Assembly (NCBI RefSeq): GCF_964204645.1
Contig: NC_134025.1
Span: 21,916,001 to 21,980,000, forward strand
Direction of reading: 5' to 3'
From: Tubulanus polymorphus
Lineage: Eukaryota; Nemertea; Palaeonemertea; Tubulaniformes; Tubulanidae
DNA length: 64,000 bases
The first letter of the stretch is position 1. Each line of letters opens with the position of its first letter. The notes beneath the pieces were generated by a model. It was not told the DNA's origin. It ran no database searches and saw only the letters and a list, made by a program, of their open reading frames with translations. The translations under genes were made by a program, and so were the position numbers. Below are positions 1,091-57,523 of the stretch, piece by piece.

Positions 1091-2680
1091 AATGGTTGAG
1101 CCCTGTATCCCGTACACAATTAAGTGTAACGGACGGGCGGTGAATTATTTCGCCCCACGGAGAACGATCATGGCGTCCAATTGGATATGGATATCTTTAT
1201 ATATTGAATGATTATTAACATCATCAGCACGTCATGTGCGTCGGATTCATCAAGTTATTGGATATGTTATTGGATACGTGAAGTAGCATTTGTGCGGCGA
1301 ATTATGAGCTGAAATTACAGGCGCTAATTGCGAGATTGAACTAAATGGAGTGGTTATTTCAAACGAATCTCTATAATCTCACCCCGTATCGAGAGCGCAA
1401 GGGGAATAAACGTTGTTGATTAACAGCTGAGCTATATTTCGGAATGGACGTTCTGACGTCATGCGCGACTTATCACCTCTCGTTATCCTCGTGAAATACA
1501 TCAAAAACTTCCGACTCGATAGCTGAGTTCAGCAGTAAAGGAATTAGCTGTTCTTTCGAGGCAACTTCCAATTTTTCCAAAAAAGAAAAATTCAAACGTC
1601 GATGAAAATCCCATCGCCTGTCGTAACGAACGTAAATGGTCTGAGTAGCGGACTGATACGTTCGGTACGAGTTTTCCAATCGACCCAGTTATACAAGATC
1701 TGTTTCTTTCCATTCGGTTGTAAGTATTTGTCAGTTCTTCGAGGATGCATTCAGAACCGCTGCAGCATGAACGCGGTTTTATGAGAAGCATCGAAAGGAA
1801 ACAGGCTGAGGACTGAACCATATATAGCGCTTTGCACATGACAAAAGTTTAGGTTAGGCAAATACGGGAATCGCTATGAGGACAGTTAAAATCTGTCAAA
1901 AAAGTTAATTCAGAGAAGCACCTCAGATGATCAAACATATCGATTGAAAAAAATGTGAACAGAATACAGCGGCATTTACTTTTGAAAATAGTTTTATCTC
2001 CAGTTCAAAAAAGTGCGTGCATGGTTTAACGTTAAGCTTTGTCTTAGCTTCCACGTAACTACGAAATTTCTGTTTAAGGCTTATTTACTTTTTCAAACGA
2101 AGCCGTGAGTTATTTATTACGTGTAAACGCTGTAGCGATGTTTTCTTTACGCCGAAGAAGGCAATTAATTAGTTGCGGGCAACCGACCGTGTGCTCATAG
2201 GTGTTTGATCAAACGCACACTATCGCGTGTTGTTGCCGGTTCTTTTCGTTGGTGTAGTTTTTTTCAATCTAATTTCTAATAACGCAAAATGAACATAGGA
2301 CCTTATATTCGCAGCGGAGCCATTCAGGGCGAACGCGAACCGTATTAGGTAATAAATTATATCGAATGCGAATGAAATAACACCGGAGGTGACGGTAACA
2401 ACGGATAACCCCTCGTACATAATATTGGAGCAACGGCTTTAGTACATGGAGAATCCCGCGCTAATTTAACGAAAGATGAAGTCCGAAAAGGTTCATTTAA
2501 GCTTATAATCAATAAATCATCAGCTTAAAGGAACATTTTTCCTGATTTCATCGTTCGTTATATTAGTGGGGGATTCACTTAATATCGTCACAACACGGGT
2601 ACAGTACTTCACCAATGGTTAAACACTTCAGTATTGCAATGAAGTAAGTAAGTGATTCAACTCTTCTATGGTTTGCTTAA
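1091..2680. other. no gene recognised
   Basis: Overlapping open frames on both strands near 1473-1839 look like chance: none has a recognisable domain or splice context. No repeat is evident. Confidence 0.45.
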
Positions 2681-2726
2681 GATACTACGAAAACCACGAT
2701 CGATAAAACATATCCGTGTTGTGAAG

Positions 2727-4815
2727 GAATCCCGCAATAATCGCGAAAAACAGTCCGAACATATGGTGGCTATGGTGGCTGATTAGGGCCAAGTTAAAAA
2801 AAAAAAAATTTCGTGCAATATACCATGCAAAAAATATATTGCTTCGTTTCTGCGTCCGTTTTTGCGGGGCGCCAAAACGAAATTTACCGCGCAGAAACGC
2901 GCCAAAACGAGTGCAGAAACGAACGTTCGTTTTAGCGCCCGTTTTGGCGCGTTTCTGCGCGGTGATTTCTCGTTTTTGCGCCCCGCAAAAACGAAGTTCG
3001 TTTCTGCGTCCGTTTTTGCGGGGCGCCAAAACGAAATTTACCGCGCAGAAACGCGCCAAAACGAGCGCAGAAACGAACGTTCGTTTTAGCGCCCGTTTTG
3101 GCGCGTTTCTGCGCGGTGATTTCTCGTTTTTGCGCCCCGCAAAAACGAAGTTCGTTTCTGCGTCCGTTTTTGCGGGGCGCCAAAACGAAATTTACCGCGC
3201 AGAAACGCGCCAAAACGAGCGCAGAAACGAACGTTCGTTTAAGCGCCCGTTTTGGCGCGTTTCTGCGCGGTGATTTCTCGTTTTTGCGCCCCGCAAAAAC
3301 GAAGTTCGTTTCTGCGTCCGTTTTTGCGGGGCGCCAAAACGAAATTTACCGCGCAGAAACGAACGTTCGTTTTAGCGCGTTTTAGCGCGGTGATTTCTCG
3401 TTTTTGCGCCCCGCAAAAACGAAGTTCGTTTCTGCGTCCGTTTTTGCGCTGCGCAAAAACGAAATTTACCGCGCAGAAACGCGCTAAAACGAGCGCAGAA
3501 ACGAACTTTCGTTTTAGCGCCCGTTTTGGCGCGTTTTAGCGCGGTGATTTCTCGTTTTTGCGCCGCGCAAAAACGAACTTCGTTTCTTCGTTCATGCGCG
3601 GTAATTTTGGTCGGATGGTGGCGCCAGGGTTCATCTCGTGATACTAATTACGGCCTTAAAACGTTGTATTATTATACCAATTATTTTCTAATTAATTTAA
3701 TTTTCAGAGTTACGTTTATACGCAATAAAACTTCCTTTATCGGTGATTTTCTGATTTTTTACGAAAGCCAGTAGCACTGCCTTCACTTAAAAGTAAACAC
3801 ATTCAAATTAAATATTTGTAAAAATTGACGTTTTGATGCGGTAGCCAGTGCGTCAAGAATAGTGGTTATATTCACGGTTGAGAAGAGAGTAGGGCGTGCG
3901 CGTGTAGTTACCACGTGGTGCCGTTGTGACCTAGAATGCACGGCTCGGGACTGCACCACGTGGTAAAAATGGACGCAGAAACGAAGTTCGTTTTTGCGGG
4001 GCGCAAAAACGAGAAATCACCGCGCTAAAACGCGCCAAAACGGGCGCTAAAACGAAAGTTCGTTTCTGCGCTCGTTTTGGCGCGTTTCTGCGCGGTAAAT
4101 TTCGTTTTTGCGCCCCGCAAAAACGGACGCAGAAACGAACTTCGTTTTTGCGGGGCGCAAAAACGAGAAATCACCGCGCTAAAACGCGCCAAAACGGGCG
4201 CTAAAACGAAGGTTCGTTTCTGCGCTCGTTTTGGCGCGTTTCTGCGCGGTAAATTTCGTTTTTGCGCGGCGCAAAAACGGACGCAGAAACGAACTTCGTT
4301 TTTGCGCGGCGCAAAAACGAGAAATCACCGCGCAGAAACGCGCCAAAACGGGCGCTAAAACGAAATTTCGTTTCTGCGCTCGTTTTGGCGCGTTTTAGCG
4401 CGGTAAATTTCGTTTTTGCGCCGCGCAGAAACGGACGCAGAAACGATGCAATATACTTTTTGCATGGTATATTCCACGAATTTTTTTTTTTAAACTTGGC
4501 CCTAATCAGCCACCATACTAATCAGCCACCATACGAACATGTTACTGGAGCTAGTAGTTTATTCGACGTTTCGACTATATTCTAATAGTCATCTTTAGGA
4601 ATACTGATCCGTTTAATGTGAAACTGTATCTATGTTAATTTTTCCCTTAGTTTGTATCACTTTTGATTACCCCATTAGTTTCTTTGTTCTGATTTCATAT
4701 GTTGAAAAAAACCAGTATTCCTGAAGATGACTATTAGAATATAGTCGAAACGCTGAATTAACTACTAGCTCCAGTAACATTTTCGGACTGTTTTTCGTTA
4801 TTATTGTCGGATTCT
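2727..4815. mobile_element. large foldback element with CpG-rich inverted satellite arms
   Basis: Outer ends are inverted: GGAATCCCGCAATAAT at 2727 and ATTATTGTCGGATT near 4798-4811, each next to a shared CAGTCCGAA motif. Inside, 2761-3600 and 3965-4534 are reverse complements: ATGGTGGCTGATTAGGGCC, an A-run, a TGCAATATACCATGC-like block, then an array of a 154-bp CpG-rich unit. The left array has about five units, the right about three. The unit is built from short complementary words such as CGCAGAAACG / CGTTTCTGCG and AACGAACGTTCGTT. The unique spacer 3600-3964 carries a small inverted repeat TTACCACGTGGTGC / GCACCACGTGGTAA (3908-3921, 3953-3966). Open frames on both strands here are repeat artefacts. 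A further stem, 4550-4605 with 4711-4780, belongs to the outer element. Confidence 0.85.
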
Positions 4816-5071
4816 CTCTACATTGACTATGAAAATCGTATTAACAAATCGCCAAGCAAAATTTCATTTTGAGTGTAAGTATCGAAGCCCTTCTGTCTCA
4901 ACGTATTTAGAAGGGTGATGAATGTTGAATCCTTTGAGTAATAATCCAAAATATGGGCATTAATTTTTCTTCATTAGTTGACGATAAAAACGCTGACGCA
5001 AGTCGCATTCGGCGAACTGTTTTTCGCATTACGTGTGCAGCAGCTTTCGTTCGGTTTCGTGTGGTGATTAT

Positions 5072-5475
5072 TTTCACGCCGTTAAAATCGTTACAATAAT
5101 ATTTACAATTGATACCTATTATGCGTTCTGTGTGAGTCGATGTGATGTGCACTACGTCATCAATAATTTGGCGTGTTGGTAATTTTTAATTTTGGCGTTC
5201 ATTTTGTAATTGAATATATTTCATAACCCTTATTTCATTTTTGATAAATCTTAATAACTATTTTGGGAGGATGTGCACTGCGTCATCAATATATTGGGGC
5301 TGGACTGGTTGCCAGTCAATTTAAATCAATGATCTATATATTCAAATCCAAAATAACTTCATTGATCCTCGATATTATTTTGATTTATTATTATATCATT
5401 CATTGTCAACAACATTACGTAATATGCCTGTTATTTTTCAAGCCGTCAATAAACTTTCAAGTTAGTTTTCTCGTT
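5072..5475 (+). repeat. dispersed repeat family A, copy 1
   Basis: About 400 bp. Diagnostic blocks in order: CGTTACAATAA, GAGTCGATGTG, GTGCACTACGTCATCAAT, then a second CACTGCGTCATCAAT, GGGGCTGGACTGGTTGCC, and a 3' end GTCAATAAACTTTCAAGTTA. The two TCATCAAT blocks are an internal duplication. No terminal inverted repeat was found, so a SINE-like origin is as possible as a MITE. Confidence 0.8.
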
Positions 5476-20200: not shown

Positions 20201-23200
20201 CGACGCAACTGAAAGCAACCGCTTTCGCAGCCCAGCTTATGTCGACTGCGCTCCGATTCGCAGCAACTGAGGCCGACTAGCGGGATATGAGATCCTCCCA
20301 GTTGCTTCCCTCCTTATGTCGGTAGCGATTACTAGCAACTGCAACGGCTCAAATGGTCACGTGATAAGCATTTTGAGAATAAATTTGAATAATTAGGAAA
20401 TATACTTCTATTAGAAAAGCTATTTCTTCAAGACTTTGATCTTTCTGATTCTGTTTTGAATACAACGTGCTAGCGACATCTATAAAGATGGCCGGTCACA
20501 CCATAATTCTACCAATTTCGTTTCTAGATCTTCGGTCCAGTCCTCTGCCGTGCTGAAGGTTTGGTTTACGTTTTGAACTACTTGAATTTGAAAGTTTATG
20601 GATAACATAACGACTAATTACGAATGACGCTAACTAGCGGTGATAATTTGTACTATGTATATGCGGTCTCTCATTGGCTGGAACCCCTGCGCTCAGTTCC
20701 GTCGCGTCGCAGATGAGCTTATGTCGGCTGCGATCGAAAGCAACTGCCCGCCTACCGTAGGCCGGAGTAGAACATGGGCAACTAGCCGGATACGGCTTGC
20801 GACGAGTCGGTAGGCGTCGCGTTGCCGTCGCAAGCCGGCTTATGTCGAATCGATTGAGGAGCAACTGGCGGCCTCTCGTAGGCCGCCTGTTGCCGCTAAT
20901 CGGCGATAAACCCAGTTGCGTCGGTAGGCGTCGCGTTGCTTTATGATTTGGCATAACAAAAAACTGAAGACTGAGTGATGAGATGTCGCATATCGATATA
21001 CTCACATGCCCACTTATATTCTACTCGAGTACCGGTGTAGCTATACTGATGCTAGGCGCTGTTTAAGTCTATTGAACGGTTTATGTTTTTTTTTATTTCT
21101 TCATTTAGTTTGCCACTGAAATAATTTTTTCCTCCGATTGCATTTTCAAAACGTAGTGACTTTAACTTGCATTAATTCATTATTGCCATTATTGCTATGG
21201 TAACCATGTATCATAATTCAAACCACGATAGCCTGATCGAAGAAGACGTTAGCTTTTTGTAGTTACGTATAACAAAATCAACTCCTAACGCTAATGGAAC
21301 TGTTTTTCCGACGAAAGCAAAGCACTCTTCATTAAGCAGTTGAATGAGCAACAGACATCAAATATTAATGTCGGTCCGATGGTGATAAAAATCCATGCAA
21401 TTTCTACTAATCGTTGATTAAAAAACGGCCGCATTGGCCCTTCCAGGAAATGGATTATACCACCATAAGATAATTACACCGGAATTAAATTTAGACCGGA
21501 CCAAATTTTGGTGAGCGTTCACACGGCGTTTTGAAACCCGGTGATAAAATCGCTTGTCACCGAGCCCACAAGATGTCGCCAACTGCTAAATAATCAATTG
21601 CGCCTGGGTGAAGTCTTGCTTCCAGATTCGATATATAGCAAGACATTCTTCATTTGACCAATTCATTCCTCTGTCAGGTTTAGACATTTTTGCGAATTCG
21701 ATTTTATTCAATCAGCTGAAACTTCTTAAGAATAATTACATAAACGGTAATAAAATGTCTAAATTGGTCCGGACCAGATTTATACCAGTCTAAATCTATA
21801 GTTTAAAAGTGGCTTAGTCGGCCTGCGACACGACGAACTCCCTGTGACAATCCCGCCAGCCACATGTCGACAAAGTGATAGAAATTCATATGCAATTGAT
21901 AAAATTGAAGTTGAACTTGACAAGAGCCCTCTTGCACTGCCAGTTTAACACCATGGCTACCACCACGAGCTGCTGCGACGCCTATGCTCACCGTAAGCGA
22001 ATTTTTTGTGCACTTATGTGAACCGGCTTTGGCAATCAACTTCTTGCCTCGCTACACCATTGAGAGCTAGGCGCGATCAATTCAAATTAAATTTTTCTTT
22101 CCAATTTAAACTTTATTGTTCTTTAGATAATAAAAGTCGGTTTATATTTTAGTGCACGAGAAATCCGTTCGTCGTTAGTATAGCGGCAGCACCCCACGGT
22201 GCAACGATACATCACTAGACTCGCCTTTAAGTCAACTACCGCACGTCGCAATCAAATTGAGCACCAATTTTCAAACAGTGTTGTAACCGATCGCACCGCG
22301 TTGCAAGCGGTCGCAAGTCGACTAGAGCCTTCCTTATGGTATCAGCATGATAATGGCTTATTACCATAGTAACGCCATTGCCACTGAGTTTTGTTTTCTA
22401 ACTAATCAAGCTGAATCCAGTTCCTCCGCTTGCGAATGGGATCATCACCTCCAGATTCACAGTACTAAAGATATATATCGCTAGGCAAGCGGGATTTTCA
22501 CGGAAGCTGACCACAGCTCGGTCGTATAATAGATTAAGTTGCCATAATATACGGGAGTCTCGGGGAGATTTGCTCATTCGTCAATTTCTACTTTTTCAGT
22601 TGATGAACCTGAATTCGGACATTTTGCCTCAGTATCGTTTGGAAGCGCCTAAAACTCCGCCTCATATAATACTACACTATTGCGCGTTCAAAGCTACATG
22701 GGACTGGATGATATTGTTGCTGACTTTTTACACGGCCGTCATGGTTCCGTTCAACGTCGCTTTCGAGAACAAATCGATGGACGACGTTCCGCTGCTAGTG
22801 GTCGACAGCATCGTCGACGTCGTCTTCTTCATCGATATCATATTGAACTTTCATACGACTTTCGTCGGACCGGCCGGAGAAGTCGTTTCCGATCCGAAGA
22901 TAATTCGAATGAACTATCTGAAGAGCTGGTTCGTCGTCGATTTGCTGTCTTGCCTTCCATACGATGTGTTCAACGCTTTCCAGCATTTAAACGAGGTACG
23001 TATAACGCCTGTCTATCCGCCACACCCACTTCCGCGCCATTGAATCTATACACTAAAATGATTAATCCCCGCACTACTACTCACAGCGTACCACGGCAGC
23101 AACGCGAATTGAAACTATCATTCTTAAAACTATTTTCAGCATATCAGCAGCTTGTTCAGCGCTCTGAAGGTGGTTCGCTTGCTCCGGTTGGGTAGGGTCG

Positions 23201-26200
23201 TTCGAAAATTGGACCACTATCTGGAGTACGGCGCGGCGGTTTTGGTGCTTCTTATATGTCTGTTCTGTTTAATCGCGCATTGGTTGGCCTGCGTCTGGTA
23301 CAGCATCGGGCGCGAAGAGCTGAAGAACGGTGTGACGTACGGATGGATGGCGATTCTGTCCAACGTCACGAACACGAAACGATACAACGAATCCGACTAC
23401 GGTATCGATAAAGCCATGTCTTACGTCACTTCCCTTTACTACACGTTGTCGTGTATGACAAGTGTGGGATTCGGCAACGTTGCCGCCAACACAGTCTACG
23501 AAAAAATATTTTCTATTGCTCAGATGATCCTGGGGTGTAAGTTCTTTTTTTCTATCTATATTGTCCTTAGAAGAATTTGAAAGTTTTATAAAGATACGCA
23601 AGACACAAACGTTCCAATATATATGACAAGAGCGCTTAGAACTGATAAAAACTGATTGAAAATGATATCAATACAGGGAGGTGTTCAGGGGCTCTCGACT
23701 CCCTTGCTCCGTGTTAAAAATTTTCTGATATCAACCGTATTTAACGATGAAACTAACCAAACTTCAAATCTTTATCGATTGCTGTTTCGGCGCGTCTACC
23801 TGAAATTAGGTAATGCACATATTCTTATGAATGCATACTTCATTGAAATTTTAAAATAAAATACTGCGCCTGACCCCTTCTGTAGAAATTCCTGGATCCG
23901 CCCCTGTAATAGTTACCACCCAGTATTCAATAAAATGGAGCCCTCGATTGAAATTGGATTCATTTTTCTTGATTTCAGCCCTTTTGTACGCTACCATTTT
24001 CGGAAATGTCGCCACGATATTCCAGCAGTTATACTCGACGACGGCGAGATATCACGAGATGTTGAACAACGTCCGCGACTTCATGAAACTACACGACGTT
24101 CCTAAAGCTCTCAGCGAGCGGGTTATGGACTATATCGTTTCTACTTGGGCCATGACGAAGGGAATCGATACGGCAAAGGTACAAATCAGCGTCTGATCCT
24201 TAATGTTTAGGTTCACCAGACACGTTCACACGGTGACGAAATGATGGCGAAACAACAATGGGGAACCCGCGACACCACCAATCCCACCAGATAGCGTGCA
24301 CTGACAAGCAATAGGTCTTACGTTGTCAAGATTAGTTCATTTTTCAATGAACTGAATTGAACTGATACCCGAATCCATATATTATCACAGCTTCCACCAA
24401 ATATAAATGAATTCATTTTTGTAATCAGTATATCGGTAGGCCCCTATAGTTTTCATAAATGATTTACTTATTTGAGAAAAGAAGTTCACTCAGTTTGAAT
24501 TGAAATGTAGAAGAAATCGAGCGCTTAAGACCAACTATCTACTAGCGAAAACCTGGCGGATGCTCGATTGCCACGTTAGCGCCGGGGGTACCACATTAAA
24601 CCCCGAGACATATGTAGAAAATTAGCTGTATGTGATTTTACAATGGTTCCCCCATTGTCACTCGTTCTAGGTACTGAATTACTGTCCTAAGGATATGAAA
24701 GCGGACATATGCGTACATTTGAACAGAAAGGTTTTTAACGAGCACCCGGCATTTCGCTTGGCAAGTGACGGATGTCTGAGGTCTTTAGCGATGCACTTTG
24801 GAATGAGCCATAGCGCTCCCGGTGATTTATTGTTCCACCAAGGAGAAAGTTTAGACGCTCTGTGTTTTATTGTATCCGGATCGTTAGAAGTGATTCAAGA
24901 CGACGAGGTAGTGGCAATACTCAGTAAGTATATGACGTCACCAGCAGGCTCTAGATCTGAGCAATCGTATCAATCTATTGTACATGTCATGCCTCACAAC
25001 GGGAAGAGAATGCAAAATCAGTTCTACAGTCGTAAATGCATTCAACAAAAAATACACTCAATTTTGAAATTAGTTCATTTTCAATTAATGGAAGTTTCCA
25101 GTTACCAGGCGCCATTTTGAAGCGGTCCTATTGATCCCACATTGTTATGTTGGACAGATGTTAACATTCTTTTACATTAAAACCTTAAGCGCGATTTTAT
25201 GTCGCCTCGAAATTAAGATTAAAATCCAATGTCGAATCCCAGAACCGTGGGACTGGATCATGGCTTTCATATTAAAAAGGGACTTTTTTAATCGATGTAT
25301 TTTACAATAGTTCATCATTTTTACAGCAAAAGGTGATGTATTCGGCGACAATTTTTGGAAAGAGCCGTCTCTTGGACAATCCACAGCGAACGTACGTGCC
25401 TTGACTTACTGTGATTTACACATTATCAAAAGGGATCGCCTGCTGGAAGTGCTGGACTTTTACCACGCGTTCGCAAACTCATTCGCCAGAAACTTACTGT
25501 TGACTTATAACCTGCGCCATAGGGTAAGAAATATCGTAAAAACATTGATTTCATGTACCCAAGAATCTTCGTTTTAACTTTTGGAATCGGAGTTTGAAAA
25601 ATTGCCTAGTACAATACCATCTAATGCCTATTTCAACTTGAATTGCGAGGACGTCCGGTGGCTCAGCTTAGTCAGTTTCGGTGGTACATACCTTTTACAT
25701 GTTTTTAAAGGACCAGAATGGACGGGCGGTTGAACATCGTTTTTTAATCCATTTTACGCTGTATTGGAGGATTGCAAAAAGTACATACATGTTTTGAATA
25801 TCGTACTGTTAAAAACCAGGTCTCTGTGGGTTCCATAGGGATGTAAATCTCTTAACCCAGAGCAAAAATTTAACTATCGGTTATAACTGTGATTTGCAAT
25901 TTGGTCTAGGTCTAGGTTTATGTTTGGTTAATCCAAAGCAACGGCGTACTGATATCGATCATCATGATTGTGATGTTCTTTGTCTCCTACAAATATCCTC
26001 CAGCGAAAGGATGGATTTCATTTGGATTTGCTCAAAATAAGTAGTAACGTTATTACAAAAAAGTCATTGACATTTTCGAAAACAACAACTGTTAAACGTA
26101 TCCCGAATACTGTATTTCTTTCCAACCAATGCGTGAATATCATTAGTATATCATATTTTAGTAAATTCGCACTGAAATCTATTAATGATTTATGAATTTT

Positions 26201-27564
26201 AGCTGATATTCCGAAAAGTGGCGGACGTCAAACGCGAACGCGAATTGGCCGAAAAGAGAAAAAACGATCCTCCATTAGATTTATCTAGCGACCATCCCGT
26301 GCGAAAGTTGATATCGAAATTCAGGAAAATCAGCGACGGAAAAGTTCTCGGCGGAAGTGACGCGGAGGCCGAATACGACGGAAACTGCGTGAACGACGTT
26401 TCCGACGAACAGAGGCCGAACAGCGCTAAATATACGAATGTGAATGAGATTACCGAACAGCTCGATAACCAGTCGAATCAGGTTAGAACTCCGGCGGCTC
26501 CGAAGCCGACCGCTCTCGCGTCGAAATGGGGACGATTCCTAGCGGGCGGGAGTGATAAAAAAGCTTCCGGCGACGCTAAGAAAGCGGCCAAATCCAACGG
26601 CCCGGACGCGGCGATTGTTTCGACGTCGACGCTCGATAGAAGCGGTAGCGCTGCTGGCGCTTCGGTGGCCGGACAGGAGAAAAATGCGGGAACGGTAACC
26701 GCAGCCAAAGAAGCGGCGCCCTCCAGACAGAAACCGTTGTCGAAATGGAATCGAATGATCGCCGCCCGACAAGAAACGATCGAAGAAACGAACGAGGACG
26801 ACGATACAGGCGCGCGACAACAACACGAGCCTGTAATCAAAAGCACCGATTCGGAAAGCAACGACGTGTCGTTCAACGAACGCCATCATCGGCTGAACAA
26901 CAATCCGTCCACGCGGGAGAATCACAACACAGAGCATGCCGTCTGCGCGATGTTGCCGGCTGCCGACCGGGACGCTCTGTTGAGTTCGCTCATGGACATC
27001 AAAATCGAGATCAAAGACGAAATCGAACTTCTGAATCATAAAATGACTCGGATCGACGACCAGATCGGCGAAATATTCAAACTGTTCTCGCCGACTTCTT
27101 CGCCATATTCGTCGCACATGAGCAGCGGTCATTCTAGAGTTTATTCGACGGCCAGTAGTCAGTCTAGCGGGTCGGAGAGTAACAGCAGTATGCCGTCGCC
27201 GAAAAACTCTCCGCACCGTACATCGTTAGAAAACATTCCGCACACGTACATAGGACCTTCGCATCCGGGGTCGACTTTGCACAGCCACGAGACTGATATA
27301 ATACCCGGTACGGCACAGTCAAGCGACCAGAATCCACCGTCGACATCGACTCCTACGGAAGCGGCGTCTGCTGCAGCGGAGGCGGGTGGCGGTGGATCTG
27401 GCTCTTCGTCGGCCGGTTCTGGTCGGTCGGGGTCTGGCACGCCGACCGGCGTTAGATTTAAAGGGAAGGGTCGAACTAAAGGCCGGGTCCACCCGCAGCG
27501 AGTGTCTCCAGCCGTTGACGACGAAACAGCGCCGGTGAAAGATAGAGACTTAGACATCCTATGA
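11251..27564 (+). CDS. eag: EAG-type voltage-gated K+ channel (KCNH1/5 family), N-terminal exon not found
   Basis: Pore-forming subunit of a tetrameric plasma-membrane potassium channel. Nine exons with GT-AG borders and matching phases: 11251-11481, 18615-18743, 19478-19599, 22600-22995, 23140-23536, 23979-24178, 24671-24923, 25327-25523, 26203-27564; about 1094 residues. Counting from the first residue here: PAS domain about 1-120 (GFCKLSGY, then RTPLW and FKDIT); a basic segment [15 protein letters not shown] at about 122-136, where EAG channels bind calmodulin; S1 about 195-215, S2 227-245, S3 269-284, arginine/lysine-rich S4 301-319 ([11 protein letters not shown]); selectivity filter SVGFGN 401-406; S6 to about 437; C-linker and cyclic-nucleotide-binding-homology domain to about 640, ending in LTYNLR, whose Y and L match the EAG intrinsic ligand; long tail with a tetramerisation coiled coil near 900-940. 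Family members start with roughly 25-30 more residues before the PAS core; that short exon must lie upstream. The donor at 18744 is GTTCGT, weaker than the others. The gene is intact apart from the missing first exon. Confidence 0.95.
12051..12417. mobile_element. foldback/MITE in EAG intron 1
   Basis: Arms AGAATCCCAAAATATTGAAG at the left and CTTGATTATTGTGGGATTCT at the right are complementary over about 70 bp. The interior shares TTTCGACTATAT, TTCAGGAATAC and AATCAAAAGTGAT with the outer foldback at 2727-4815, so both belong to one family. Confidence 0.65.
12430..14500. other. EAG intron 1, no nested gene recognised
   Basis: Several long frames occur on the minus strand (13278-13709) and plus strand (13989-14459), but none shows a family signature or paired splice sites. 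They are treated as chance. Confidence 0.45.
14520..14614. mobile_element. short family T element, near-perfect hairpin
   Basis: Arms of 36 bp, 14520-14555 and 14579-14614, are almost perfectly complementary and contain CAGGGATTCGAAT and GGTTCGAATCCCTG, which resemble a tRNA T-arm. The 23-base loop is CTTGCCGTGGCTTAG-like. Confidence 0.8.
14620..18020. other. EAG intron 1 continued, no gene recognised
   Basis: A 20-base block (ATAACCTTAA.CCGGGGGTA) is duplicated in tandem at 15910-15950. The frames at 16702-17083 on both strands have no recognised family. Confidence 0.45.
18022..18220. mobile_element. near-perfect 200-bp palindrome (foldback) in EAG intron 1
   Basis: Two arms of about 90 bp meet near 18122. 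From the outside in: CGAAGAAGTCCCACAGTTCG / CGAACTGTGGGACTTCTTCG, a GATGTAATTTAT block, AAAACGAAACC, AACGTTTCGGCTGTTG, AGCCATCATCA / TGATGATGGCT. Only a few mismatches are seen, so insertion is recent or the arms are being kept alike. Confidence 0.85.
18427..18938 (+). repeat. direct repeats flanking the second PAS exon
   Basis: 18427-18570 and 18814-18938 share GAGGTCTA(TA)TGAATCACTGGTTAGGC, TTGTGACTTTGATTC and CATCATTTTCGCCC-like text, with gaps and some divergence. The EAG exon 18615-18743 lies between them and is not itself duplicated. Confidence 0.75.
20152..20945. mobile_element. TIR element with MADF-like remnant (Harbinger-like)
   Basis: Left end AAGCAACGCGACGCC...CGACGCAACTG (20169-20211) is inverted at 20913-20943 (CAGTTGCGTCGGTAGGCG, TCGCGTTGCTT). 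Subterminal GGCTTATGTCG words are repeated in both orientations, and a second right-end copy lies at 20807-20830. On the minus strand, about 20600-20480 reads [19 protein letters not shown] followed by CDRPSL and a stop. This has the W...L..LW..RP pattern of MADF/SANT-like domains. Too short to act on its own. Confidence 0.6.
21478..21800 (-). mobile_element. Harbinger-like element, truncated copy
   Basis: Ends carry TTTAGACCGGACCAAAT-like and ATTGGTCCGGACCAGATTTA-like subterminal repeats. The interior, read on the minus strand, matches the copy at 60575-61240, including an ATG frame starting MSKPDRG and continuing NWSNEECLA, plus the block GTGACAAGCGATTTTATCACC. The plus-strand frame at 21608-21793 is its shadow. 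Confidence 0.7.
23676..23908. mobile_element. hAT-like MITE in an EAG intron
   Basis: The right end, on the minus strand, is CAGGGGCGGATCCAGGAATT, a terminus typical of hAT MITEs; the left end begins CAGGGAGGTGTTCAGGGG. It fills most of the intron between the pore exon and the next exon. Confidence 0.55.
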
Positions 27565-51282: not shown

Positions 51283-52477
51283 TATTACTCGACAGTCAGT
51301 TGCTTATATACATTCCATCGATGCTGAACTCTTGTTCTCATTCCAAACCAACCAGACGAACAGACAAAACTGTCATCTGTAGTATTACGTACGTGGCTGG
51401 AAACGCGGCGAAATCTTGCCACAGGGAGGGAATAGTATACTCGTCAAGATTAATGAAATATCCGGGTGAACGCGGTTGACAAAAATTTCACGTGTATATT
51501 TCACTCACTCACTTTGCGACACTTCATCGGTAAATTGTTATGTCGTGAGGGACAGGATCTCAGCATTCAACATGCATCTTATCATTTATATTTTTATCCA
51601 TTAAATCAGGTCTATATTTTGATATGAATTTGTTTGTTTGTAAATCAATCTTTCTCATTTTGTGATTCGACCTCACTTTTTGGTCAAAAGGGGCGAAAGT
51701 GGGTATCTCTAATCTTGCTCGAAGAAATGGAAGCGGGGAGAACCGCAAATTGCCCACGTCGGTGACCTATTTGGAGAGAATACGGTTTCTCTGATTCTCA
51801 ATCGGTTAACTCAGTTAGATACTGTTGAAACAGTTTAAACCAAAAGTCTCTTGATGATTGTGCCTTCAATTCCTTAAAGTCATTTACCACTATCAAGCTA
51901 CTTTGTAGCGCTTAGCATGTTATTCAATACGAAAGACAACACGTTTGTCAAAGGTTTTTTGGTTCGTTGGGTTGATCAAGTGAAACTGTCAGTGTCAATG
52001 ATTCGAATGGTCCACAAGAGTCTGCGGAACATGGAGAAGTTGTTCCTTCAATCGAGTATATCGTAATATACAAGACATCTTAGACACATCACCAATGCTT
52101 CGCAAATGAGCTGCCGTTTAACTAGAGTAAAACCTTGCAAGATATATCATTAGATTTCAATTTCTTTGAAAAGTAATTATGATTATCATTATTCTATTAG
52201 ATTTTTCACTCGTTTCACCGAATCCTTAGAATATCTCTTTTTCCAAATACCGACCTTAAAACTTGCACCGATATTACGACTGTTTTTTCAAAATTACCGT
52301 TTGTTCCAAAACTCTGGGAATAAATAGTCATGTAAACTTGAACTTGAACTTAAAAGATTAGGATATATCTTACACCAAAGTTTCACAATCTATATCAAAT
52401 CAAAGGAAAAACGCATAATTAAACATAGATAAACATAGATTTCTGTTGTTAAAAGAGGAACAACTCGTCAAACAGAA

Positions 52478-52478
<1 letters not shown>

Positions 52479-52508
<30 letters not shown>

Positions 52509-52537
52509 AAGAAGAAGAAGAAGAAGAAGAAGAAGAC
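52479..52537. repeat. (GAA)n microsatellite
   Basis: About 59 bases of uninterrupted AAG/GAA, followed by degenerate GAC/GAA triplets to about 52553. A homopurine tract of this kind can form triplex DNA. Confidence 0.95.
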
Positions 52538-54828
52538 GACGAAGTAGACGAAGAAATACTCTGCCAAAATTGAGTGTTATTCAGCAGCTGTAACATCTCT
52601 TTTTACGATTGTATTCTTTAACACTTAACTATAATTCTAACGATAACTTTGTCAAATCTATGAGCAAACGCCCGCTTAGAGTTGATTTGTTCATCTTGAA
52701 ATGGGATCGTCCATGTTATTCATTTGATTGGTAGATTCTTACCGTATATCAATTTTTTACTTTTATTCACACTGTCTACACGAACAAAGTTAAAAAAACA
52801 ATGCATTGATAAATATGCATACGTACACAAATATATTCGTTGACGCAAAAGAGTACCGATTAAAGTTTACCTTTGAGCCAAAGTATACGGAATTTGAATT
52901 GCACATTATCGACTGAAAAATATCTGCTCGTCATAAATATTCTAATAAGTTTCCTATTACTAGTTTTCGTATTGCGGATACCTGAAGGCAGAGCTATCTA
53001 AACCCGACCAATCCCGCTTGAATACCTAAAGAGTAATTAGAAAAATTCTTGAAGTTCGCAGGATACTAAGATAGAAACCTTAGCGAGGTAGCATTTTCCG
53101 TGATTCTGCACAATTTCTTTTTCTTGGTGGACATTTTCTTCCGTGGAAACTTATCTTTGCGGCGGTTGGTTGCGAGAAAATACGAAACGGAAGCAAGCAG
53201 ATGATTTTGACCACCAATAGAGCTCACGGATAAACTCACGTTTACACGTCATTGCTAGCTCGCAAAGGAGTTTTTTTCTGGATAATTTTCGTTAGAACAC
53301 ATCACCAATTAGATAGTGTATGCGTCATTATCATGCCTTTAAATTGCACTAAGGAAACCACAATTCTGATACAGACCACTTGTGGGTACTTTCGTGGAGG
53401 TACCTTCGTAGGTTTACCCTTGGAGTAATAAGACTGTATTCAGTCACATTGTTCCAAGGTTTATCCTTTTCAAGAAAACCATGGCCAGTTGCGAAGCTAA
53501 AAGATCATTTATTGGTGTCAATATAGTTTCAATTGCGGCCCTTTTTCTCACGGTATTCAAGTGATAGGGCCAGGTTCTTCGAGTTTCACAGTGGTTGTAC
53601 AGAGTAAGTTTCTTTTTTTAGTATCTACACTTGAGTCTAAGTCAAAAGCTGGGAATAAACGATGTTGTGGAAGATATGCCGCAGTGTATCTTTTCATGGT
53701 TAACATTGATCAATGCGACCAAAGGAAACTCTGATAGTATTAAAAACATGTGTAGCTATTCTGGGGAAGATTACATGGACACCACTGATATATGCTTAGC
53801 TATCTGATATTTCAATTCATTCGAAATGCGTCATGCGAGATAAGAGGATTTTCAGTCATTGTTTCTGTCAACGTGAGTCGTTAAATGGACAAGGTCTCGT
53901 AGACATTAACTTATCGCCACACCTTAAGACTCTATTCAATCACTCGCTTACCGTTAAGTCCTAAAACAAAGATTCACGTATCATCTACCAATATGATATA
54001 GTACAGCGACAGATCTGATTATGAAGTGCCGATATTCTATAATCCTCAAACTACTCATGGTAAGTACGTAGTTTTCAGTTCAGTTGAAGGTGATGACGTG
54101 AATACGTGTTATTCCCGTGAGAGCTTGAAATCCTAGTATGTGAACAGTAACAGATCATACTGATGATTACTGATCGGGTGATCGGCCAAATCTCTCACAA
54201 TCGATGCAACGTATTTAGCAACATTTACAACGTATTTAGCCTATCCTGGACCAGTCTTAGGACATAGGCCTACATACAAATCATTTGGCCACACTAAGAA
54301 ATACCGGCCATAGTTTCTCAAGAAAGTTTTTTAAAAGTAATATTGAAACCCGCTCGCCCGCATAGCTGTGTAGTGTATGACAGTGGTATTTTTTCTGCGG
54401 GCGTTTATAATGCTCATCTTCGACGTACTGGTAATCCACATTTACGGTGACAAAAACAGCGCCAGGTTCGTTTTCTTTTACTTCATTTCAAGGAAGGTGA
54501 AGCTAGCGAAAATGATTGTCTCAGCTTCGATTAAACGAGTCGATATAGTTTGATTTTATAGGTTTTGGGGAGCTTCTTTATTCTAAATAAAGTTTTTTGC
54601 ATATGTTCTACTTGCATTACTGGCATTGTAAAAACTTCCCTCCCGCGTCTGTTCAATAAGTCTACTTACAATTGTCTCCAGTCAATGCTATGTCTTGATA
54701 TCAATATGATAGTGATGTAGATTTTTTTTGTATTGTTAGATCGTTATAAATTTAATTTAAATTTAAATTTAATTTTGTACTCCGTACATCTCGACCCGGA
54801 TCGGGTGTATCAGTAAAAAACAGAGTTT

Positions 54829-57133: not shown

Positions 57134-57523
<390 letters not shown>

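Follow-up and report, generated by a model that had tools for sequence, protein, structure and literature searches.

The large palindrome at 2727-4815 of the DNA analysed here is, with a probability of about 0.86, a non-autonomous cut-and-paste DNA transposon of the superfamily IS3EU with foldback-type ends. The whole stretch under analysis, called the window below, comprises 64,000 nucleotides of Tubulanus polymorphus and lies on contig C1 of the genome that was searched (267.8 Mb in 77 contigs). The element itself occupies 2762-4533 (1,772 bp) and carries the 6-bp target duplication CGAACA on either side. Array-built foldback ends of this kind are uncommon in the superfamily. The parts of the window copy are listed in Table 1.

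Table 1. Parts of the palindromic element and of its target in the window
Feature	Position	Strand	Basis or remark
Left piece of an unrelated target repeat of about 310 bp, palindromic	2727..2761	.	joined flanks give one imperfect palindrome; other copies uninterrupted
Left target-site duplication CGAACA	2756..2761	+	flank comparison
Partial extra terminus copy (9 bp), TATGGTGGC, inside the left duplication	2762..2770	+	
Left terminal segment, beginning TATGGTGGCTGATTAGGGCCAAG	2771..2842	+	at least 41 genome matches; 97% complementary to right end, 37 nt
Left array of the 154-bp unit, 51 CGTTTHNGCG words	2843..3595	+	
Spacer of two fused long-form inner ends (3596-3909 and 3913-3964), ACC at the join	3596..3964	+	junction identical in L026 and L030
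Inner 14-bp inverted pair, left half, across the deletion junction	3908..3921	+	
Inner 14-bp inverted pair, right half	3953..3966	+	
Right array of the 154-bp unit, reversed orientation, 34 words	3965..4446	-	
Right terminal segment, ending CCACCATA	4447..4517	-	
Full extra 16-bp terminus copy, inside the right duplication	4518..4533	-	
Right target-site duplication CGAACA	4534..4539	+	flank comparison
Right piece of the target repeat of about 310 bp	4534..4815	.	at least 141 genome matches

An inverted-repeat comparison within the window revealed two arms, 2799-3325 and 3965-4491, which are 95% complementary over 527 nt. Tandem arrays with a period of 154 bp lie in opposed orientation at 2843-3361 (99% matches) and 3965-4446 (95%), and the array of the left side extends to about 3595 and contains one shortened unit (spacing 120). 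The outer ends (2771-2807 and 4481-4517) are 97% complementary over 37 nt, and an inner 14-bp inverted pair is present with TTACCACGTGGTGC at 3908 and GCACCACGTGGTAA at 3953. The initial annotation, made from the letters of the sequence, had described two facing arrays of one 154-bp unit and this inner pair, and both were borne out. It had also proposed that the unit is built of complementary words, which proved correct. The main constituent of the unit is the 10-bp word CGTTTHNGCG, covering 71% of it; counted in both orientations, the word occurs 51 times in the left arm, 34 times in the right arm and not once in 4901-64000. When folded as DNA, a lone unit forms a nearly full-length hairpin of -72.5 kcal/mol, compared with -32.9 +/- 3.25 kcal/mol for shuffled versions (z = -12.2; none of 200 as good). 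An Rfam scan of the window gave no match at the gathering threshold, and the microRNA and sRNA matches in the arms, all of them under the gathering scores, were set aside because they look like chance products of the hairpin.

With regard to base composition, the arms do stand out, their observed/expected ratios for CpG being 2.34 and 2.40, but the sharp contrast that had been claimed holds on this side only, since the window as a whole reaches 1.33 and the surroundings are not CpG-poor. A second CpG-rich stretch at 26200-27560 coincides with an open reading frame of 453 aa. Elsewhere in the window, the open reading frames at 22402-23580 resemble, by eye, exons of a KCNH/EAG-type voltage-gated potassium channel, and long simple repeats are found at 57135-57285 ((TA)75) and 52474-52555 ((AGA)27).

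The outermost pair of inverted repeats has a different origin. The initial annotation had placed all inverted repeats into one nested series; the outer ends, the arms and the inner pair are real members of it, but the outermost arms, 2727-2761 and 4534-4815, belong to a different repeat which was split by the insertion. After removal of the insertion and of one CGAACA, the flanks rejoin as a single imperfect palindrome of about 310 bp (74% identical), and the repeat is uninterrupted at this site in all 11 other loci compared (L052-L062, two of which overlap), with at most small gaps nearby. Therefore we assign 2727-2755, 4540-4815 and one CGAACA to the target and not to the transposon. Insertion into one arm of a palindromic repeat accounts for the outermost inverted repeats, and the nesting thus has an ordinary cause, the outer repeat being the landing site of the window copy only. 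Likewise, palindromes are indeed present on four scales, as had been stated, but they go back to separate causes, namely the target repeat, the transposon ends, the self-complementary unit and the inner pair.

The target repeat is abundant, with at least 141 matches in the genome when 40 of 1,255 first-look candidates were scored. A self-complementary piece of it, about 65 bp long, occurs in tandem at several loci with a spacing of about 69 bp, for example at C9:14557899-14558238, C8:1768781-1768985 and C11:3573105-3573440. We also considered the target repeat as a hammerhead-bearing retroelement and rejected this, as no hammerhead family was among the 52 Rfam matches (E up to 1) in 2400-5200.

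The genome search for the unit and the outer ends that had been suggested at the outset returned at least 287 matches for the 154-bp unit and at least 41 for the 81-bp outer end. We examined 20 further loci, which together with the window makes 21, and left out eight single-end matches of the outer end. At least one end with no more than one mismatch to GGTGGCTGATTAGGGCC was found in 19 of the 20 further loci; the end of the remaining locus, L036, is doubtful (4 mismatches). Both ends are present at 13 of the 21 loci, the window included. The duplication count refers to these two-ended copies and leaves aside L027, L033, L034, L035, L036, L038, L071 and L072, at which there is a single end, no close end or a set of several ends that cannot be paired clearly. 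An exact 6-bp target duplication flanks 9 of the 13 copies, and four have none, among them the 20.3-kb copy and L026. By comparison, none of 156 pairings of non-cognate ends matches at 6 bp and one matches at 5 bp. When duplication lengths from 3 to 12 were tried, 6 was the only length that matched in any cognate pair. All 13 two-ended copies have the termini TAT...ATA outside the GG/CC, where the GG itself is present by selection, since the ends were located by a motif starting at GG.

In the window the CGAACA duplication is visible only outside the extra terminus copies, a partial one of 9 bp on the left and a full one of 16 bp on the right. The duplication likewise lies outside an extra terminus at L030 and L039, from which we conclude that the extra terminus at these loci belongs to the mobile unit. 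An extra terminus also occurs at L026 and L032, where no matching duplication is present. Near L030 (3936) and L032 (832 and 3029) there are further termini, which read TATGGTG(G/A)CTGATAAGG and apparently mark a related family of short elements; termini of this type flank the L032 copy on both sides.

Three long copies have the same opposed arrays around a common interior. They are located on C6 (14.1 kb, duplication GATTCG), on C2 (12.7 kb, CCGAAT) and on C8 (20.3 kb, no matching duplication). The interior of the C6 copy measures about 11.6 kb, and the main interior pieces are 97.6-99.7% identical among the long copies, with one stretch of about 260 bases at 82%. The greater length of the C8 copy is due to an extra stretch with an open reading frame of at least 1,624 aa (L024-L025), which by eye resembles a BEL/Pao-type retroelement. 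The one-ended locus L034 carries 1.9 kb of the long-copy interior.

The short form in the window is a deletion derivative of such copies. The two halves of its spacer are the inner ends of the long-form halves, and the long copies diverge from it at both points. Over the 46 bp that span the deletion junction, the window, L026 and L030 show no mismatch; the intact duplication of the window differs from that of L030, and L026 has none. One junction at three loci, two of them with distinct duplications, indicates that the deletion form moved after it had arisen, and such movement of the short form would require a transposase supplied in trans. The left half of the inner 14-bp pair spans the junction, and this pair has an origin separate from that of the other palindrome scales. 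A further and different deletion derivative is present at L031.

A six-frame Pfam scan of the C6 interior (L021:2345-8000 and L022:1-5947) detected two families only, HECT and the integrase core PF24764, which are located on opposite strands. The HECT C-lobe exon reaches a Pfam E value of 8e-12, and the region around its active-site Cys can be aligned with HUWE1. When the putative transposase exon pieces were searched separately, three of the six matched PF24764, in order and on one strand, at profile positions 2-32 (E 7e-6), 101-141 (0.0017) and 143-174 (0.0066); the first of these passes the curated Pfam cut-off and the other two are below it. The remaining three pieces gave no PF24764 match, including the RIDAGTEN piece with a putative second Asp. 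Read by eye, HVDGHDK, RIDAGTEN and QRIERWW plausibly constitute the D, D, E set of the enzyme.

A profile search of the genome gave 40 matches to PF24764, compared with none in 14 control genomes, and the split integrase of the foldback family itself is absent among the 40. Elsewhere in the genome, two PF24764 relatives without introns match the NCBIfam IS481 model (E 1.4e-5 and 1e-4), and one of them also the IS3 model (1e-3), all far under the curated cut-offs. Ten short PF24764 loci (L041-L050, about 3.5 kb each) contain neither arrays nor, with up to 6 mismatches allowed, the ends of the foldback family, and probably represent other families. At L073 (C5:13569501-13578500) a PF24764 match and a relative of the last 147 aa of the reading frame described below (50% identity over 85 aa) are separated by about 7 kb. 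Matching ends were not found there within 9 kb, nor was a HECT domain in the final 4 kb, scanned in the three forward frames, and perhaps the locus carries the same gene pair in a family that has diverged.

Upstream of the HECT C-lobe there is a 469-aa open reading frame (L021 4849-6258), for which no Pfam family was detected, nor for its last 147 aa. By eye it looks like the N-lobe side of the HECT domain. Searched against the PDB, the last 147 aa gave three matches, all of them to the HECT ligase E3A (E 0.37, 1.7 and 1.7), which as a sign of the N-lobe side are suggestive only.

The assignment to IS3EU follows from the combination of TAT...ATA termini, a 6-bp duplication and integrase-class exon pieces in the long relatives. 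Elements of this superfamily have TA..TA termini and usually 6-bp target-site duplications, according to the available part of the description (PMC10045372), and the family described here shows both, together with putative exon pieces of an IS3/IS481-like DDE class. The placement thus rests on termini, duplication length and domain class and not on a transposase tree. With long inverted terminal repeats that contain tandem repeats around a variable middle, the element also has the structure of a foldback.

Whether the arrays do anything for the transposon is a separate question, and here we lean only slightly towards a binding or pairing role. Somewhat less probable, and compatible with the IS3EU assignment, is that the arrays are functionless passengers, grown like a satellite within the terminal repeats by unequal exchange. 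Arms differ widely in their number of units, from 1 to 7 when those of at least 140 bp are counted, which fits such growth, as does the existence of a two-ended copy of 0.28 kb, though this copy lacks a matching duplication. On the other hand, the 10-bp words are more conserved than the remainder of the unit, with 191 mismatches in 2390 positions against 115 in 955, and the rate is lower in nine of nine other copies; the sites are not independent and P values from this comparison are optimistic. Also against mere passengers, L040, a diverged copy with a 6-bp duplication, shares the array architecture, which indicates that the arrays are not a recent accident. Gene conversion between the arms of one copy was considered but is not supported. 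Among the 76 units of at least 140 bp and at least 88% identity, mean identity amounts to 96.9% inside an arm, 96.6% across the two arms of a copy and 96.5-96.6% across copies, and 60 of the 76 have their nearest unit in a different copy.

Other classes of element fit much less well than IS3EU. A Maverick/Polinton-type element with deletion derivatives would also produce 6-bp duplications, have long terminal repeats and carry an integrase domain, and the length of 12.7-20.3 kb would suit the 12-20 kb of such elements. However, the six frames of the one interior of about 11.6 kb that was scanned with Pfam contain no DNA polymerase B, packaging ATPase, protease or capsid, and the termini fit the TAYGG..CCRTA of IS3EU, so that we regard this as very unlikely. 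We give as little credence to a foldback element of the Mutator type or of the P type (Galileo-like). Such elements share the architecture, the deletion derivatives and the occurrence of some copies without matching duplications, as far as the available parts of the reports describe them (PMC4079207, PMC3573991), but the duplications here measure 6 bp, none of the 13 cognate pairs matches at 7 to 12 bp, and no Mutator or P/THAP domain is found in any frame of the scanned interior. The least credible explanation is a host satellite folded back by inverted duplication, or a misassembly, with no transposon at all; it would agree with the satellite-like unit and its opposed orientation, but these ends and arrays are found again, with 6-bp duplications, at independent loci, and the target repeat is unbroken elsewhere.

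For an IS3EU foldback, we propose that a long copy supplies the transposase, which binds the ends common to the short and long forms, cuts at the TA and inserts both forms alike through 6-bp staggered cuts. The arrays would have expanded within the long form's terminal repeats and then been carried along. They probably offer many secondary binding sites, given the 10-bp word in both orientations and its 85 occurrences in the window copy, and/or they may form a stem by which the two ends are drawn to each other. The window copy landed in the palindromic repeat of about 310 bp. A bolder scheme, drawn by analogy with the TET/JBP and alpha-kinase cargo of fungal elements, appears improbable to us. 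According to it, IS3EU evolved foldback ends independently, CGTTTHNGCG, repeated in both orientations, would be a dense binding platform for the transposase, and the HECT ligase of the long form would act as a counter-silencing or copy-control factor on the proteins gathered there.

The initial annotation knew of no described element that matches the palindrome. This no longer applies to its components, since the foldback architecture is known from Galileo and Tetris, and the termini, the 6-bp duplication and the transposase class are known from IS3EU, but the combination was not found in print. In the accessible portions of the literature searched, neither foldback tandem-array ends nor a HECT gene is described for IS3EU, and the available part of PMC4255032 contains nothing relevant on HECT with DNA transposons; a relative catalogued in Repbase or Dfam may exist.

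Going by the parts of the sources at hand, our family resembles IS3EU/GingerRoot in its termini, its 6-bp duplications, the IS3/IS481-related DDE class and the presence of accessory genes beside the transposase (PMC10045372, PMC12730594, PMC10853768). Fungal IS3EU elements end in TAYGG..CCRTA and have TET/JBP and alpha-kinase genes aboard (PMC12730594), and the fungal element Styx, tied to IS3EU through its transposase, also carries extra genes (PMC10853768). Our family differs from these elements, as they are described there, in its long terminal repeats of 154-bp tandem arrays and in an accessory gene with a HECT C-lobe. Repeated DNA has been linked to IS3EU before. TCAST10 of Tribolium (PMC5844308) and CgiSat35 and CgiSat47 of the oyster (PMC8268682) are satellites similar to or annotated as IS3EU; in the parts of these reports available to us the link consists of similarity or annotation only, and no array-ended foldback transposons are described. 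Transposon ends of the kind described here are one route by which a satellite-like unit can be scattered through a genome.

Among foldback elements, Galileo of Drosophila, a member of the P superfamily, is similar in its long terminal repeats, its deletion derivatives and its copies with unmatched flanks, which in Galileo are chimeric (PMC3573991, as far as available). One of its subfamilies has internal tandem repeats, up to three of about 210 bp, and tandem repeats in the terminal repeats have been proposed to serve as multiple secondary binding sites. Galileo differs in its 7-bp duplications and its P-type transposase. Tetris, a foldback of Drosophila virilis, has a variable number of tandem repeats of about 220 bp in the terminal repeats around a middle domain (PMC4079207, in the part consulted). 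Its duplications are 8-10 bp long, Mutator has been suggested as its origin and no autonomous copy is reported, whereas the family in T. polymorphus includes copies with transposase-class exons. According to the same part of that paper, most foldbacks seem to be Mutator elements, with exceptions such as Galileo in P, and the view is cited that the foldback form may arise in different lineages through loss of the transposase and growth of the terminal repeats. With IS3EU, one more superfamily joins those with foldback architecture. Moreover, foldbacks are often met without a transposase, while here the short form and long copies with transposase-class exons occur in one genome, which makes the family a system for testing how satellite-like ends are used.
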